Source: Flavobacteriaceae bacterium (GTDB taxonomy: Bacteria > Bacteroidota > Bacteroidia > Flavobacteriales > Flavobacteriaceae). Taken from it: DNA of 11,195 bases. The DNA is taken from contig JAHRWC010000428.1 in the NCBI GenBank assembly GCA_019090365.1, positions 1 through 11,195 on the forward strand, read 5' to 3'. The translations under genes and the position numbers were made by a program. The notes under the pieces are model-generated. The model had not been told where the DNA came from. It ran no database searches and saw only the letters and a program-made list of their open reading frames with translations. This document shows, one piece after another, positions 2 through 6,118 of the stretch (position 1 is the first letter of the stretch; each line of letters opens with the position of its first letter).

Positions 2-892
2 AGTAAAAAGGAAGTCGAAAAATTAGCATTAGAGTTTGAAACAGAAAAAAAGAATAAAGCTATTGAATTATTAAATGTTGAAAAAAACCTGAATGAAATA
101 CAATTAAAGAAAAGTAAGCAGCTTCAATTCGCTTTTTTATTAGCAGCTGTATTAATATTAATGATTTTATTTTTATTGAGAGCAAGGCATAAAAATAAGG
201 TTAAAACAGACAAGCTTTTAAAAGAATCGATGGAACGAAGTTTTCAAATGAAATTAGCAGATTCAGAAATGCAAGCATTACGAGCACAAATGAACCCTCA
301 TTTTTTATTTAATTGTCTAAACTCAATAAATAGTTTTATTATTAAAAATGAACAAGAACAGGCTACTGAATACTTATCAAAATTTTCAAAATTAATAAGA
401 AGAGTATTAAATAATTCAAAAGAACCAAAAGTTACCCTAGGTAATGAAATTGAAACTCTTAAATTGTATATCGAATTAGAAGCATTACGCTTTAATAATA
501 AGTTTGATTATTCAATTGACATACAACCCAACGTCGAAATAGATTATTTAGAGATTCCTCCATTAATTATTCAGCCCTATGTTGAAAATAGTATTTGGCA
601 CGGCTTAATGCATAAAAAAGAGGGTGACGGTAAGTTGAATATTAATATAACTCAAGAAGAAGATCATATTGAGGTAACTATAGAAGATAATGGAATAGGC
701 AGAGATGCTGCTTCACAATTAAAAAGTAAAAGTGCAGAAAAGAGAAAATCGTATGGAATGAATATTACAAGTGAACGTTTAAAAAATTCAATAAATTCTA
801 CAAATGAAACTTCTCATGTTGAAGTAATAGATTTAATAGATTCAAATAATAATAGTTTAGGAACAAAAGTGATTATAAAAATAGGGATATGA
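2..892 (+). CDS. LytS/YehU-type sensor histidine kinase, 3' part (5' end outside window)
   Basis: Membrane sensor kinase expected to phosphorylate the overlapping LytTR regulator. The frame is open back to the window edge, so the Met codon at 161 lies inside the transmembrane helix and is not the start; the true start is upstream. The visible 296 residues hold a charged coiled-coil-like stretch (1-42), one hydrophobic membrane segment (about 43-60), a second charged linker, and a His_kinase domain of the PF06580 type with the phospho-acceptor motif MNPHFLFN (His at visible residue 100, bases 299-301). A HATPase_c domain follows, with an N-box (PPLIIQPYVEN then SIWHG), the G1 motif EDNGIGR, and a late SYGMNITSERL segment. 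In Bacteroidota such kinases usually carry N-terminal TPR repeats; that is inferred, because this part is not in the window. The stop overlaps the next start (ATGA), so the two are co-transcribed and probably translationally coupled. Confidence 0.93.
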   Translation, partial: SKKEVEKLALEFETEKKNKAIELLNVEKNLNEIQLKKSKQLQFAFLLAAVLILMILFLLRARHKNKVKTDKLLKESMERSFQMKLADSEMQALRAQMNPHFLFNCLNSINSFIIKNEQEQATEYLSKFSKLIRRVLNNSKEPKVTLGNEIETLKLYIELEALRFNNKFDYSIDIQPNVEIDYLEIPPLIIQPYVENSIWHGLMHKKEGDGKLNINITQEEDHIEVTIEDNGIGRDAASQLKSKSAEKRKSYGMNITSERLKNSINSTNETSHVEVIDLIDSNNNSLGTKVIIKIGI

Positions 893-1635
893 AAATTAGA
901 AGTGTCATATTAGATGATGAACAACATTGTATAGATACATTGAAATGGCAGCTAGAAAAATATTGCATTGAAGTAGATGTTGTAGCTTCTTTTAATTCTC
1001 CAAATTTGGCATTAGAGTATGTTAAAACAAATAAAATTGATTTAGTTTTTTTAGATATTGAAATGCCTGAAATGAATGGTTTCGAGTTTCTTAAAAATAT
1101 TCAAAATATTAGTCTTGAAGTGATTTTCACAACTGCTTATGATGAGTTTGCTCTTAAAGCTTTTCAGGCAAGTGCAATCGATTATTTATTGAAGCCAATA
1201 GATAAAGAAGGTTTGGTTTCAGCAGTAAAAAAGATGCAAGAGAAAAAGAAACCAAATTTACTTCCTGAGCAAATGGAAATATTATATGATTCTCTAAATA
1301 CTAAAAAGCATATAAAAGAACGTATTGCTGTACCTACACAAGAGGGCTTGTATTTTGTAAAGATTAAAGAAATAATGTATTGCATTTCAGATAGTAACTA
1401 TACTAATATTCATCTAATTAATAATAAAAAATTACTGGTGAGTAGAACTTTAAAAGAAATTGAATTGATGTTGGAAGGTTCAGGGTTCTTACGCATTCAT
1501 CATTCGTATTTAATTAATCTTCAAAAAATTGAAAAATATATTCGTGGTGATGGCGGGTATGTAGTAATGGACGATAAAAAATCATTAAGTGTAAGTAGAA
1601 GTAGAAAAGAAGCACTTCTTACAATTTTTGAATAA
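889..1635 (+). CDS. LytTR-family response regulator
   Basis: DNA-binding response regulator, cognate partner of the upstream kinase. The receiver domain (about 1-120) has acidic residues D9 and D10, phospho-acceptor D56 in FLDIEMPEMNG, T81/T82 and K102 in the LLKP motif, so all the usual phosphotransfer residues are present. A LytTR DNA-binding domain follows (about 145-246), recognised by IAVPTQEGLYFVKI, the ISDSNYTNIHL segment, the FLRIHHSYLIN motif and the SVSRSRKEAL ending. The length (248 residues) is normal for the family. The 4-bp ATGA overlap with the kinase fixes the start. LytTR domains typically bind pairs of short direct repeats, and one such pair lies just after this gene, ahead of the fibre gene. 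That target is inference. Confidence 0.95.
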   Translation: MKIRSVILDDEQHCIDTLKWQLEKYCIEVDVVASFNSPNLALEYVKTNKIDLVFLDIEMPEMNGFEFLKNIQNISLEVIFTTAYDEFALKAFQASAIDYLLKPIDKEGLVSAVKKMQEKKKPNLLPEQMEILYDSLNTKKHIKERIAVPTQEGLYFVKIKEIMYCISDSNYTNIHLINNKKLLVSRTLKEIELMLEGSGFLRIHHSYLINLQKIEKYIRGDGGYVVMDDKKSLSVSRSRKEALLTIFE

Positions 1636-1759: not shown

Positions 1760-4700
1760 ATGAAAACATTCAACGTATCCCTATTCGTTATTTTTATAAT
1801 GATTCCTTTTTTTGCCCTTTCTCAGGTGGGTATTGGCACAGTAACTCCCAATGCCCAACTAGAGATTAAATCTACCAATCAAAGCACGCCCTCAAATACA
1901 GATGGTATTATAATACCTAAAATCGATGAATTTCCAAGCACAAATCCAACCGCTGCACAAGATGGTATGATGGTCTATGTAACTGGAGATGGTACTGAGG
2001 CAAAAGGTTTTTATTATTGGGACGAAAGTACTACAGCATGGATTGTATTCTCTGGTGTAAAAGACCATGATTTTTATAAAATAGGTACATCAAATCCATC
2101 TACAAGTATTAATGATGACCTCTATACAATGGGTAAAGTAGCTATTGGTAAAAACACAGCTTCATATACACTCGATATTGAAAGTAATTCTGGTGAAAGA
2201 GGGCTAAATATAGATCTAAATGTATTAGATGATGATCCTAAGTATGGAAATTATATCAGTCTAAACAATTCTGGTAATGGAATACATTATGCTCAATATA
2301 ATGATATGTCGAGTAATGGTTTGGCACATCATTATGGAGTGTATACTGAAATGTCTGGTGTTGGAGTAGGTGCTCAATTTGCTACCTATAATTTAATTTC
2401 AAATATTAGAAATAATAGTCATTATGGGGTATATAATAAACTTACAGGTACTGGCTTTGGGCAAAGATACGGTACTCATAATGAAATTATTGGTACTATG
2501 ACAGGTTCTGGAATTCACTATGGTGTTCGTAATTGGGTAGACTCAAATAGTGAAGGGTACAAATACGGAGTTCATAGTAGAATTAGTGGTAGTGGATCTG
2601 GAGAACATACTGGAAGCTATAATTTATTGAGTGGTGCAGGTACTGGAATTCAAAGAGGATTTTATACAAATATTTCGAATACCAGTGATGCTGAAAAATA
2701 TGGGGTGCACAGTCGTGTCACAGGAGATGGTGATGGTTTGGTTTATGGAAACTTCAATTATCTTAATAGTTATGGAACAGGAAATCAGTATAACGTATAT
2801 AATGAAAATGTAGCGAGTGGTTCAGGGGAACATCATGGTGTTTTTAATGCTATTAATGGTCTAGGAACAGGTAATAGATATGGAATTTCCAACTCTATAT
2901 CTACTAGTAATGTTGGTTTAGCTTATGGAATTGAAAATACGGTAACTACATATGCTTCAGGAGAGGCTTATGGAGTTAAAAACATTGTAGGAACTGCAAA
3001 TTCAGGGATGATATATGGAACATATAATTTTATGGTTGGCGCTGGAGATGGAGATAATTATGCTAATTATAATTTAGTTGGAAATGGTGCAGGAGCAGGT
3101 ACAGGAACTGGAGATAAATATGCTAATTACAATAAAATTTATGACAATGCTGGAGGAACTCATTACGGATTATATTCTGAAGTGTTAAAAGCTGGTAATA
3201 ATTATGCTGGTTATTTTTTAGGAAAAGTATCTATTGGTACTACTGCCGCAAATAGTTATATTTTACCTAGTAGTCGAGGTACATTGAATCAAGTATTACA
3301 AACCAATGGGTCTGGGAATTTAAGTTGGGTAGATAATACTTCAATGGGAACTGATAATCAAAACATATCAGGTTCAAGTCTTTCAGGAACAACATTAACT
3401 ATTGGTATAGAAGGAGGAACTAATGAAACTGTAGATTTATCGACATTACAAGATGGAGGTGCTCAAGAAATAAACGATTTAAACGATGGTAAAACAGATG
3501 CCACTTCGCTCTTTTTAGGAACAAGCTCTGGAACATTAGATGACGGTACGGCTAATTCTAATGTGGGAGTCGGACATAACTCTTTAGGGGGAGTAACGAG
3601 TGGTTACCGAAATACGGCTATTGGCTATGTAAGTATGTTGTCTAACAATACAGGATTTGCTAATACTGCAATAGGTTACTATAGTTTAGGTCTAGTTACA
3701 AGTGGGTATGGAAATGTAGCTGTGGGTCATTGGGCAGCACGTGATGCAGTTGGCAGTAGAAATACAGTTGTTGGTACAACTGCTTTTGCAGATAATGTAT
3801 CTGGTGATAACAATACAATTTTAGGCGAATCTGCCGCTAGAAATTTAACAGGAAGTAATAATACAATGCTTGGCCGACAAACAGGAATAGGAAGCGGGCC
3901 TTATACTATGAATGGTAGTGTGTTTATTGGTAATAACGTGGGTGCCAACGAATCGAATTCATATAGATTGTATATTGATAATTCAAATACTGCAACACCT
4001 TTAATCTATGGAGAATTTGATAATGATATTTTAAGAGTAAATGGAACATTACAAGTTGGAAATCCATCTGGAACTGGATACATTTTTCCAACTAATAGAG
4101 GTGCAGCAAACCAAGTTCTGAAAACAAACGCTTCAGGTAACGTGAGTTGGGTGAACGTTACTTCTTTTGGTTCAGAAAAAATAGATGATCTTACCGATGG
4201 TAAAACTAATACAGCTAGCAATTCTATCTACATAGGTGTTAATGCTGGTACAGCTACATCAGACACAAATACAGGAAATATCAGTATGGGAAGAAACACA
4301 TTATCGTTACTCACAACAGGTAGTAATAATGTGGCCATTGGAGATTTAGCTTTAGAGGATATAACAAGTGGTTCTTCAAATGTAGCATTAGGTAATTATG
4401 CAATGACTAATAGAACCTCTGGAAGCAATAATGTAGCTATAGGTAGTCATTCACAATTTTTTAATTATACTGGAACTGAAAATAGTTCATTAGGACTGCG
4501 TGCTCTTTATGGAAATAGTGGAAATAATAATACGGCAATTGGTGCTCACGCAGGTCATTCTTCAGGTTCTGGAAGTAATAATGTTTTTATAGGTTATAAC
4601 TCAGGTTATAATGAATCTGGGAATAATAAACTCTATATAGAAAACTCTAATGCTAATGCTAATAATGCACTTGTCTATGGTGAATTTGATACAAATATTT

Positions 4701-5566
4701 TTAGAATAAATGGTTCATTTCAAGTAAGTAATCCCGTTGGAACAGGTACTAATCATTTTGAAGTTAGAGATACTGGAAGTACTTATTTTGGAGGAGCTAC
4801 CTATTGGAAGCAAAATAGTACAATAGGAACAACTGTCGCAGGTTTATTTAATATTGGGGATGATGGTGCTTTTACTGTAAATAATGGAGGAAATGCTCAA
4901 CACTTTATTTATGGGGCGGGAACAACTGCTTTTAATGTGTTACAATTAGATACAGATTTTCAAATTAGTGGAGATAACAGTTCAAATCTGTTTTATGTAG
5001 ATGCCAGTACAGATCGAATTGGTATTGGTACTGCGACGCCTAATACCACATTACATATAGCTGAAGGAGTTGATGCGAGTTTAGCTACCAATTCTGGTTA
5101 TATAGTTGTTGGGGATTTAGCGGGGCAAAATATGGTGATTGATCAAAATGAAATTATTACTAGATTCAATGGCGCTAATTCTACCTTGTTTTTAAATCAA
5201 ACAGGAGGCGATGTTTGGGCAGGAGGCGCTTTAGTACATAGTAGTGATAGACGCTTAAAACGTAATATTGAAGATTTAGACTACGGTTTAAAAGAAGTGC
5301 TTCAGTTACAGCCAAAACAATATTTCTGGAAAAATAGAGACAATCAAAAACAAGAATCATTAGGCTTTATAGCACAAGATGTACAAGGTATTATTGAAAA
5401 TATTGTACATGTAAATGATGATGAACAAAAAACACTAAGTATAAGTTATACCGAATTAATTCCTGTGCTAGTGAATGCGATACAAGAACAGCAAAAACAA
5501 ATAGAATCACTAAAAACAGAAATTATTTCATTAAAAGAAAGTACATACAGTAAAATCAATAAATAG
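1760..5566 (+). CDS. Secreted tail-fibre-like repeat protein with C-terminal Peptidase_S74 chaperone
   Basis: Large (1268 residues) exported protein, predicted to form a self-processing, probably trimeric fibre. The signal peptide (about 1-22) ends FALSQ. Next comes a Bacteroidota tail-fibre N-terminal module with VGIGTVTPNAQLEI (23-36) and a GMMVYVT...GFYYWDESTTAW segment. A 15-residue repeat array (175-481) follows, then two copies of a module with YadA-head-like NTAIG repeats (from 489 and from 763), a beta-rich stretch, a second GIGTATPNTTLHI motif, and the S74 intramolecular chaperone (from 1162) with a C-terminal coiled coil. The chaperone has the SDRRLK motif, so Ser1162 and Lys1167 match the known self-cleavage dyad. 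There is no obvious T9SS C-terminal sorting domain and no phage gene nearby. Its position after a kinase/regulator pair suggests dedicated control. Function (adhesion, surface structure, contractile-system fibre) cannot be settled from sequence. Confidence 0.88.
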   Translation: MKTFNVSLFVIFIMIPFFALSQVGIGTVTPNAQLEIKSTNQSTPSNTDGIIIPKIDEFPSTNPTAAQDGMMVYVTGDGTEAKGFYYWDESTTAWIVFSGVKDHDFYKIGTSNPSTSINDDLYTMGKVAIGKNTASYTLDIESNSGERGLNIDLNVLDDDPKYGNYISLNNSGNGIHYAQYNDMSSNGLAHHYGVYTEMSGVGVGAQFATYNLISNIRNNSHYGVYNKLTGTGFGQRYGTHNEIIGTMTGSGIHYGVRNWVDSNSEGYKYGVHSRISGSGSGEHTGSYNLLSGAGTGIQRGFYTNISNTSDAEKYGVHSRVTGDGDGLVYGNFNYLNSYGTGNQYNVYNENVASGSGEHHGVFNAINGLGTGNRYGISNSISTSNVGLAYGIENTVTTYASGEAYGVKNIVGTANSGMIYGTYNFMVGAGDGDNYANYNLVGNGAGAGTGTGDKYANYNKIYDNAGGTHYGLYSEVLKAGNNYAGYFLGKVSIGTTAANSYILPSSRGTLNQVLQTNGSGNLSWVDNTSMGTDNQNISGSSLSGTTLTIGIEGGTNETVDLSTLQDGGAQEINDLNDGKTDATSLFLGTSSGTLDDGTANSNVGVGHNSLGGVTSGYRNTAIGYVSMLSNNTGFANTAIGYYSLGLVTSGYGNVAVGHWAARDAVGSRNTVVGTTAFADNVSGDNNTILGESAARNLTGSNNTMLGRQTGIGSGPYTMNGSVFIGNNVGANESNSYRLYIDNSNTATPLIYGEFDNDILRVNGTLQVGNPSGTGYIFPTNRGAANQVLKTNASGNVSWVNVTSFGSEKIDDLTDGKTNTASNSIYIGVNAGTATSDTNTGNISMGRNTLSLLTTGSNNVAIGDLALEDITSGSSNVALGNYAMTNRTSGSNNVAIGSHSQFFNYTGTENSSLGLRALYGNSGNNNTAIGAHAGHSSGSGSNNVFIGYNSGYNESGNNKLYIENSNANANNALVYGEFDTNIFRINGSFQVSNPVGTGTNHFEVRDTGSTYFGGATYWKQNSTIGTTVAGLFNIGDDGAFTVNNGGNAQHFIYGAGTTAFNVLQLDTDFQISGDNSSNLFYVDASTDRIGIGTATPNTTLHIAEGVDASLATNSGYIVVGDLAGQNMVIDQNEIITRFNGANSTLFLNQTGGDVWAGGALVHSSDRRLKRNIEDLDYGLKEVLQLQPKQYFWKNRDNQKQESLGFIAQDVQGIIENIVHVNDDEQKTLSISYTELIPVLVNAIQEQQKQIESLKTEIISLKESTYSKINK
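2282..3202 (+). repeat. Array of about 20 15-residue YG-x-YN protein repeats inside the fibre gene
   Basis: Residues 175-481 of the fibre divide without gaps into 20 units. Eighteen are exactly 15 residues; one is 17 (QRYGTHNEI...) and one is 20 (DNYANYNLV...). The consensus is x-x-Y-G-V-Y-N-x-I-x-G-x-G-x-G. Representative units are SHYGVYNKLTGTGFG, EHHGVFNAINGLGTG and MIYGTYNFMVGAGDG. Positions 3 (Tyr), 4 (Gly), 7 (Asn or Ser), 9 (aliphatic) and 15 (Gly) are the most constant. The 45-bp DNA units have diverged strongly, so this is an old array kept by selection on protein structure, not a recent tandem expansion. A regular 15-residue period with alternating aromatic/aliphatic and Gly/Asn turns suggests a beta-roll or triple beta-helix. 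Confidence 0.85.
3224..4717 (+). repeat. Duplicated fibre module with YadA-head-like NTAIG repeats
   Basis: Copy A starts near residue 489 (GKVSIGTTAANSYILP) and copy B near 763 (GTLQVGNPSGTGYIFP). A third linker-only copy (GSFQVSNPVGTGTNHF) starts near 985. Each full copy runs: linker; a NQVLQTNGSGNLSWV or NQVLKTNASGNVSWV segment; an acidic NDLNDGKT or DDLTDGKT turn; a run of 16-17-residue NTAIG/NVAIG repeats (bases 3557-3931 in A and 4223-4594 in B); then a RLYIDNSN or KLYIENSN segment and a YGEFDNDILRVNG or YGEFDTNIFRING end. The repeats resemble the collagen-free beta-roll of YadA/trimeric autotransporter heads. The copies are clearly homologous but well diverged. Copy B is about 50 residues shorter. 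Confidence 0.82.
5243..5563 (+). other. Peptidase_S74 self-cleaving chaperone domain of the fibre
   Basis: The C-terminal 107 residues begin SDRRLKRNIEDLDYGLKEV and contain the typical YFWKNR and LGFIAQDVQ segments. In endosialidase-type tail spikes this domain drives trimer folding and then cuts itself off just before the motif's Ser, using Ser plus a Lys five residues on. Here Ser1162 and Lys1167 keep that spacing, so cleavage between Ser1161 and Ser1162 is predicted. The last 40 or so residues (ELIPVLVNAIQEQQKQIESL and on) look like a coiled coil. Confidence 0.85.
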
Positions 5567-5602: not shown

Positions 5603-5625
5603 TCAAAGTGGATCGACCACTTTGA
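5603..5625 (+). terminator. Hairpin between fibre gene and small downstream gene
   Basis: A perfect 9-bp inverted repeat, TCAAAGTGG (5603-5611) and CCACTTTGA (5617-5625), has a 5-nt loop ATCGA. It lies in the 81-bp gap after the fibre stop codon. A short T run (5630-5634) follows after 4 bases. This could be a weak intrinsic terminator or attenuator that reduces read-through into the next gene, an mRNA 3'-end stabiliser, or a protein-binding dyad. No separate TAnnTTTG promoter is visible for the downstream gene, which favours partial read-through. Confidence 0.5.
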
Positions 5626-5647: not shown

Positions 5648-6118
5648 ATGGCAGAATTATTTAGATTTTGGAGTCATGGGGTTTCCTTGGTTCCACAGTT
5701 CACACAAGTATTTACAAACACCAACAATGGATTAAGAATGGAATGTGCAGATTGGGGGACAAAAGTCAGTCAAAATGCAGGGACTGATAATTGGTTTCAC
5801 TTCCCATTGACCTCAGCAACTTCCTTAGATGGAGACGGGGCCGTCATTAACAGTGCTTTCTTTTTGGCAGACATCAATAATGATGCGACAATAAGTGGAA
5901 TTCATCTTACAATGATAGACCAATCACCAGCAACTAAAGATCCAATATTGCTTATAAATCAAAATTTAAACATTACGGGTCAAAACGATCGTTTTGATTT
6001 TAATTTTAGGCAAAGAATAGTTGGTGGAGCTCTTGTTTTGTCTATTAAGGTTAGGTTTGATAGAGATAATGGCTCTGTGATTTTTAAATCAGCTGGAGCT
6101 AATACATTTGAAATTTAA
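5648..6118 (+). CDS. Small protein of unknown function, tentatively DUF6623-like
   Basis: A 156-residue protein with no signal peptide or membrane segment, rich in predicted beta strands and short polar turns, so probably a compact soluble all-beta domain. The pattern FWSHG near the N-terminus (residues 7-11), then an aromatic/Gly WGTKV segment, then NWFHFPL, recalls a domain family I know as DUF6623. This is recognition from memory and is uncertain, and that family has no established function to my knowledge. It follows the fibre gene on the same strand, separated by an 81-bp gap with a hairpin, and ends at a strong terminator, so it probably belongs to the same transcription unit. Its first two thirds look richer in G+C (about 40% in sampled stretches) than the kinase and regulator genes. 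The start was chosen as the first Met with coding sense; there is no Shine-Dalgarno, as usual in this phylum. Confidence 0.7.
   Translation: MAELFRFWSHGVSLVPQFTQVFTNTNNGLRMECADWGTKVSQNAGTDNWFHFPLTSATSLDGDGAVINSAFFLADINNDATISGIHLTMIDQSPATKDPILLINQNLNITGQNDRFDFNFRQRIVGGALVLSIKVRFDRDNGSVIFKSAGANTFEI

Follow-up and report, generated by a model that had tools for sequence, protein, structure and literature searches.

The 11,195-nucleotide stretch analysed here (the window; contig JAHRWC010000428.1 of the Flavobacteriaceae bacterium assembly GCA_019090365.1) encodes a protein with a Peptidase_S74 (S74) domain and an array of 15-residue repeats built around the motif Y-G-x-Y-N, which we call the YG array. 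We consider it probable that this array is an exchangeable head module of an exported Bacteroidota protein, folded as a parallel beta-solenoid with one 15-residue unit per coil. As the N-terminal domain and, in about half of the cases, S74 are shared with proteins bearing YadA-type heads, the module would most likely serve as a rigid, length-variable rod for adhesion or spacing. In the searches that we made, the YG array is an undescribed repeat family, ordinary in its role and unusual in its layers of two types.

The YG array of the window protein

Residues 160-481 of the protein parse into 21 units, of which 19 have a length of exactly 15 residues if the last one ends at residue 481. The original prediction had counted 20 units over residues 175-481, 18 of exactly 15 residues, and this count holds (with the last unit cut at 481, the other two measure 17 and 20 residues). 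The BLOSUM autocorrelation of the array reaches z values of 12.1, 11.5, 10.2 and 6.5 at lags of 15, 30, 45 and 60, and the maximum in 500 shuffles was 4.6. The consensus first proposed, x-x-Y-G-V-Y-N-x-I-x-G-x-G-x-G, stands in part: Y3 (16 of the 20 units), G4 (15), Y6 (11), N7 (15), G13 (11) and G15 (15) are well represented, but V5 and G11 (8 of 20 each) and I9 are minority residues, position 9 being any of I, L, M or V in 19 of the 20.

The divergence between units at the DNA level, which had also been predicted, is borne out by an average identity among the 21 units of 47% in DNA and 28% in protein. Tandem Repeats Finder did not report the array in the window DNA. At shared V, T, A, G or P residues, the same codon is found in 166 of 419 comparisons (0.40), close to the 0.32-0.38 per residue expected by chance from the codon usage of the gene, and thus synonymous sites are near saturation. 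Since no array is seen at the DNA level and codon sharing is nearly that of chance, the units are old and have been maintained at the protein level.

These results bear on the possibility that the array is a disordered, low-complexity spacer rich in Gly and Asn, with no repeating fold. The composition (19% Gly and 13% Asn) and the modest pLDDT (predicted local distance difference test) of the models would fit such a spacer, but the strict 15-residue spacing, the conservation of residues whose synonymous sites are nearly saturated and the register-specific couplings described below make it very unlikely.

A repeat family in Bacteroidota

Residues 140-500, used as a query, retrieved 243 proteins from 7,996 scored candidates; the best 120 of them, the window protein included, were listed, and all counts out of 120 refer to this list. 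An iterated position matrix detects 2,931 units in these proteins and 5 in their shuffled versions, and the spacing between units is exactly 15 in 2,310 of 2,811 cases. A second search, with a regular relative as the query, scored 7,988 candidates and gave 577 proteins at E≤0.001. The 168 proteins listed across both searches hold 4,086 units (14-40 each; 6 in shuffled proteins), spaced by exactly 15 in 3,233 of 3,918 cases. The family consensus is x-[HQ]-Y-G-x-Y-N-x-[LI]-S-[GN]-[ST]-G-[ST]-G, and at the C-terminal end of the array there is usually a fixed cap resembling GGTHYGVYSEVLKAGSYAGYFLG, the pattern of which matches 96 of the 120 listed proteins. The longest regular run among the listed proteins, in P0010, comprises 32 exact units in succession.

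All listed proteins with an assigned organism are from Bacteroidota, where they are annotated, for example, as 'tail fiber domain-containing protein' or 'beta strand repeat-containing protein'. In a genome scan, 97 places were found, and the 80 best of them yielded 76 loci, all Bacteroidota going by the record titles. At 74 of these loci there is an open reading frame (ORF) with at least six units, the range being 6-49. The distribution is patchy: counting the window's own genome, arrays were found in 11 of 59 genomes of relatives and in 10 of 296 of the phylum. That genome (G000) has two more YG-array genes, on contigs C422 and C67. The only plasmid match, a weak one in Klebsiella with 22% identity, was set aside.

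In the precomputed Pfam annotation, S74 is present in 58 of the 120 listed proteins, the window protein among them, and absent from 62, so the YG repeat is not tied to S74. A second architecture, seen in P0010, P0016, P0021 and P0024, consists of an NYKA-type N-terminus, a YG array, the cap and a C-terminal stretch with DMKAYIYG, DMKAFIYG or a variant; none of the four has an entry in that annotation. Additionally, YG arrays occur together with F5/8 type C (galactose-binding-like) domains in P0030, P0098, P0154 and P0160, a hint that some relatives may bind carbohydrates.

The array had been described as part of a fibre, and its protein could in principle be a phage tail fibre or a prophage remnant, as S74 and the PHROG tail and virion matches in later parts of the protein might suggest. 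However, the YG array has no match in phage records, and two scans of viral contigs confirmed none at their sensitivity. The neighbouring genes are metabolic and regulatory, and their order is kept in one congener (G010; see below). A phage origin is therefore scarcely credible.

Exchange of the head at a fixed gene position

Orthologues of the repeat gene could be compared in two congeners only, because in a LytTR search of 19 genomes two matches reached 68% identity and all others were at or below 44%. Six loci were fetched, of which L119 (congener G013) and L120 (congener G010) are orthologous to that of the window. In G010, the gene order is the same as in the window, namely kinase, LytTR regulator, repeat protein, Cys/Met enzyme, AsnC regulator and CAAX-type protease, with identities of 65, 68, 75 (N-terminus, residues 4-98), 88, 74 and 68%, respectively. 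In the G010 protein (L120 6541-9327), the N-terminal domain runs directly into 17-residue repeats; the gene has one in-frame stop in the assembly, which may reflect an assembly error or decay. G010 carries YG arrays on other contigs.

In G013, the kinase, the regulator and the N-terminus are 65, 68 and 70% identical to those of the window, respectively, and the N-terminus is followed (L119 6462-10292) by a YadA_head array that scores above the Pfam cut-off. The genes downstream in the window do not fall within the G013 stretch fetched. No YG array was found at E≤0.001 in this genome, which is about 92% complete. Directly downstream of the G013 gene lies a second S74 protein (L119 3426-6149) with a different N-terminus, of the NINYKALIKDG type.

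Thus, the head differs between relatives at a fixed gene position and is an exchangeable module, although two loci are a small sample. This difference is our strongest argument for an equivalent function of YG and YadA-type arrays. With three kinds of head repeat at one orthologous position, the locus also constitutes a natural experiment.

The appearance of residues 1-21 suggests that the protein is secreted, and it would be exported through a Sec signal, probably to the cell surface. Neither a C-terminal sorting domain of the type IX secretion system (Pfam and NCBIfam, E≤1) nor an autotransporter C-terminal beta-barrel was matched, S74 being the only Pfam match of the protein at E≤1. The S74 match scores 61.2 bits against a cut-off of 22, and the domain, in which the Ser...Lys pair is present, aligns with 6f45, a long tail fibre distal subunit (E 9.6e-7). 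The Ser and Lys of SDRRLK are presumably the catalytic pair of S74. In newer precomputed Pfam annotation, many listed proteins, including that of the window, are flagged with PF26696. A profile grown from residues 20-110 matches all 97 flagged and 3 of the 23 unflagged listed proteins, so PF26696, which was considered and rejected as a name for the YG repeat, is probably the N-terminal domain. No paper naming PF26696 turned up in our literature search.

Two types of units

The units of the family fall into two types, H2/L9/G11 and Q2/I9/N11. Units with H2 have G11 in 76% and L9 in 63% of 1,707 cases, and units with Q2 have N11 in 64% and I9 in 61% of 1,071. Position 2 is informative on positions 9, 11, 13, 14 and 15, and says little on the remaining ones. 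Units of the second type are seldom adjacent: N11 units are neighbours 25 times (116 in shuffled order) and Q2 units 33 times (127 in shuffled order). Many arrays repeat at every second or third unit, and some have a super-period of 45 residues. In 78 of 105 proteins, units three and six places apart have a higher identity than units at distances of one, two, four and five, the margin being greater than 0.05 in 35; the clearest three-unit super-period is that of P0021. The window array is more degenerate and shows the two-type pattern only partly.

Covariation and fold

Mean-field direct coupling analysis (DCA) was applied to windows of three units, 3,035 of them distinct (effective number 2,125), from the 120 listed proteins and the loci of the genome scan. 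Among pairs at least three positions apart, pair 2-11 within the unit ranks first, and the next ranks are taken by 3-6 and by same-position pairs with the following unit. When windows of two units are used, z averages 2.32 at an offset of 15 and about zero at 14 and 16. Within the unit, 2-11 and 4-9 both satisfy i+j=13, as expected of two strands that face each other. A control in which the order of units was shuffled removes the between-unit pairs 5-5, 7-7 and 3-6. The 17-residue repeats behave in a similar way, with a coupling peak at an offset of 17 (1.63, 382 windows).

This covariation speaks for a parallel beta-solenoid in which each unit makes up one coil. In such a fold, strand 1 (approximately positions 2-6) would oppose strand 2 (approximately 8-11) over a narrow core, where the pairs of one large and one small residue H2-G11 and G4-L9 would alternate with layers of the Q2-N11/I9 type. 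Residues such as Y3, Y6 and N7 would stack from coil to coil, the stacked Tyr residues being the likely contact face, and the fixed C-terminal cap (GGTHYG..AGYF) would close the stack. With a rise per coil of about 4.8 Å, the value given for BpaC layers in PMC9543794, 21 units would extend for about 10 nm.

Several results weigh against this solenoid. The antidiagonal pairs 3-10 (0.3) and 5-8 (0.9) are weak, which would fit residues pointing alternately inward and outward (an after-the-fact reading), and the pair 11-15, with i+j=26, scores 2.06. Pair 4-4 survives the shuffling of unit order (z 5.2) and was discounted, and locally duplicated units can inflate couplings between identical positions. 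Moreover, the statistics come from units less degenerate than those of the window. Structure was predicted with AlphaFold2 as monomers only, for the window array (pLDDT 68.5) and for a regular array (pLDDT only 64), and the two models disagree: the regular array folds as a solenoid, whereas the window array has no intrachain strands, and its lead matches are triple-stranded beta-helix enzymes. Neither model has a Foldseek match at E≤0.001. AlphaFold2 is not an independent check of the DCA, since it uses alignments of the same family.

The lead matches of the window-array model point to a different arrangement, an interdigitated triple-stranded beta-helix in which chains alternate around one axis, as they do in phage hyaluronidases and the T4 gp5 spike, and S74 would act as the folding chaperone; S74-type chaperones are a further link to these proteins. 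Such a trimer also predicts coupling at +15, between chains, and thus only 2-11 and 4-9 discriminate between the two folds. These within-unit couplings fit strands opposed inside a coil of one chain better. Additionally, all Z scores of the matches are below the value of 8 in the tool's warning, their Foldseek E values are 6.6-9.8, and S74 is absent from the annotation of the 62 listed proteins mentioned above. The eight-residue VxGxxxxx motif of gp5 (PMC4576200) is unlike the YG unit. We consequently regard the triple-stranded helix as unlikely. Of the beta-roll and the triple helix between which the original prediction hesitated, the former, in the broad sense of a roll or solenoid, fits the covariation better, but the disagreement between the two models makes this choice provisional.

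Right-handed beta-helix autotransporter passengers (TibA) also come close among known systems, but the window protein has no autotransporter barrel among its Pfam matches, and the regular-array model has a pLDDT of 64 and a Foldseek E of 0.31. In a viral structure library, nothing matched at E≤0.001. The predicted structure of a phage protein with DUF7666 (BFVD A0A8S5MQ87) overlaps the regular-array model with a template modelling (TM) score of 0.80, at E 0.55.

Comparison with known repeat families

The initial view that no named family was known for the repeat is supported, with one reservation (PF21300, below). For the window array, Pfam and NCBIfam scans gave nothing at E≤1, and a PHROGs scan gave only one PHROG of unknown function (E 0.64). 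In related arrays (46 slices and 39 regular-array rows), no Pfam or NCBIfam model rises above its cut-off except S74, found in 5 of the 46 slices; as the slices extend 75 residues beyond the cap, we read it as an adjoining domain. Chance is our explanation for PsbW, seen in 2 of the 46 slices (best E 0.038), and for three isolated NCBIfam hits (E 0.015-0.041). P0010 has no Pfam match at E≤0.01 and none in newer precomputed annotation. A search of the PDB by sequence gave no match; by profile, the hits (HPr, antibody light chains and a single transporter domain, with E 0.13-1) were likewise put down to chance. Titles and abstract openings found in a literature search hold no description of the YG repeat, in a coverage that lacks most subscription journals.

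The nearest profile is PF21300 (LbR_Ice_bind, the grass antifreeze beta roll), the only beta-roll profile touched. It appears in 3 of the 39 regular-array rows at E≤0.1, the best of which scores 22.9 bits (E 9.3e-5), below the cut-off of 30. Five other families appear in one row each (best E 0.0062). The coil of the grass antifreeze roll is short, of a length similar to that of the YG unit. However, neither the window nor its genome matches PF21300 at E≤1, and the specificity of the profile is low, with sub-cut-off signals in 7 of 14 control genomes. As it is absent from the genome itself and fires in control genomes, we take it as a lead on the type of fold and not on membership. One array with a sub-cut-off PF21300 match (L092 5188-5817) may have an ice- or surface-binding role.

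YadA-type heads (PF05658; YadA, BpaC, UspA1) resemble the YG array in being long arrays of short repeats in an exported protein, with a similar period; in G013, such a head fills the same slot, flanked by the same N-terminal domain on one side and by S74 on the other. They differ in having 14-residue layers of the N-x-A-I-G type, with a conserved Gly at position 8, instead of 15-residue units with Y-G-x-Y-N, and in lacking a profile match and the two-type layer pattern. UspA1 is an exception as regards length, since its head has mostly 15-residue layers according to PMC9543794.

The YG array might accordingly be a divergent left-handed beta-roll, of the YadA/UspA1-head or of the grass antifreeze type. 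The YadA_head array in the same slot of orthologous proteins and the three arrays that touch PF21300 speak for this, as does the three-layer super-repeat with a polar core described for BpaC (PMC9543794), reminiscent of the 45-residue super-period of some YG arrays. By contrast, YadA_head matches none of the 46 and 39 arrays at E≤0.1, PF21300 has the weaknesses just described, there is no PDB profile match, and the 50 listed matches of the regular-array model, in a second look at that list rather than a search, include no trimeric autotransporter head. Nor is there any profile similarity to the 17-residue repeats, the head repeats that this comparison covered. We find this roll doubtful.

The later arrays of the window protein had been called YadA-like. 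Their period, however, is 17, and YadA_head does not match the window protein at E≤1. These N-[TV]-A-[IV]-G (NTAxG) arrays share with the YG array the same proteins, the same slot in G010 and coupling at exactly one period; they differ in period and motif, and hhalign gives a probability of 0.1% (0.1-0.3% for five column-shuffled controls). The YG array is thus not recognisably related to them, in agreement with the initial view that its motif is unlike the NTAIG type.

It is possible, and we propose it tentatively, that the YG array represents a new two-sheet beta-solenoid family with a 15-residue coil and His/Gly and Gln/Asn layers, the latter seldom adjacent, which is swapped with unrelated YadA-type rolls at one chromosomal position. 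The weak PF21300 match lowers the chances of this proposal. If it is true, two unrelated repeat folds serve as interchangeable heads of one exported protein. The defined repeat, cap and two layer types provide a family model for annotating hundreds of predicted proteins and a concrete fold hypothesis, and regular arrays of up to 32 exact units in succession could be rod modules for protein engineering.

Features of the locus

The coordinates of the repeat gene and its surroundings are given in Table 1.

Table 1. Features of the window around the repeat-protein gene
Feature	Position	Strand	Basis or remark
Histidine kinase PF06580, conserved neighbour, 5′ end cut by the window	2..892	+	Pfam
LytTR response regulator	889..1635	+	68% identical orthologue upstream of related gene in two congeners
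Repeat-protein gene	1760..5566	+	ORF, 1268 amino acids (aa), Cys-free, S74 domain close to C-terminus
N-terminal domain, residues ~20-98, after signal-like stretch	1817..2053	+	Profile and orthologue comparison
Extra first YG unit, residues 160-174, absent from earlier call	2237..2281	+	Read from sequence
20-unit YG array, residues 175-481	2282..3202	+	Unit parse, autocorrelation
Conserved C-terminal cap GGTHYGLYSEVLKAGNNYAGYFLG, residues 465-488	3152..3223	+	Pattern match
Linker, residues 489-525	3224..3334	+	Profile from residues 484-545 matches 83/120 listed proteins
17-residue N-[TV]-A-[IV]-G array, residues 590-715	3527..3904	+	Lag 17, z 6.1
Second 17-residue array, residues 830-965	4247..4654	+	Lag 17, z 8.3
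Peptidase_S74 chaperone domain; SDRRLK at residues 1162-1167	5243..5407	+	Pfam match
Terminator-like hairpin 3′ of repeat gene	5603..5625	+	Consensus match only
156-aa ORF after repeat gene	5648-6118	+	No Pfam match at E≤0.001

A gap of 124 bp separates the LytTR gene from the repeat gene, and this gap, together with the hairpin, suggests that the repeat gene has a separate transcript, which the adjacent LytTR system may control. At the place of the 156-aa ORF of the window, G010 has only about 100 bp.
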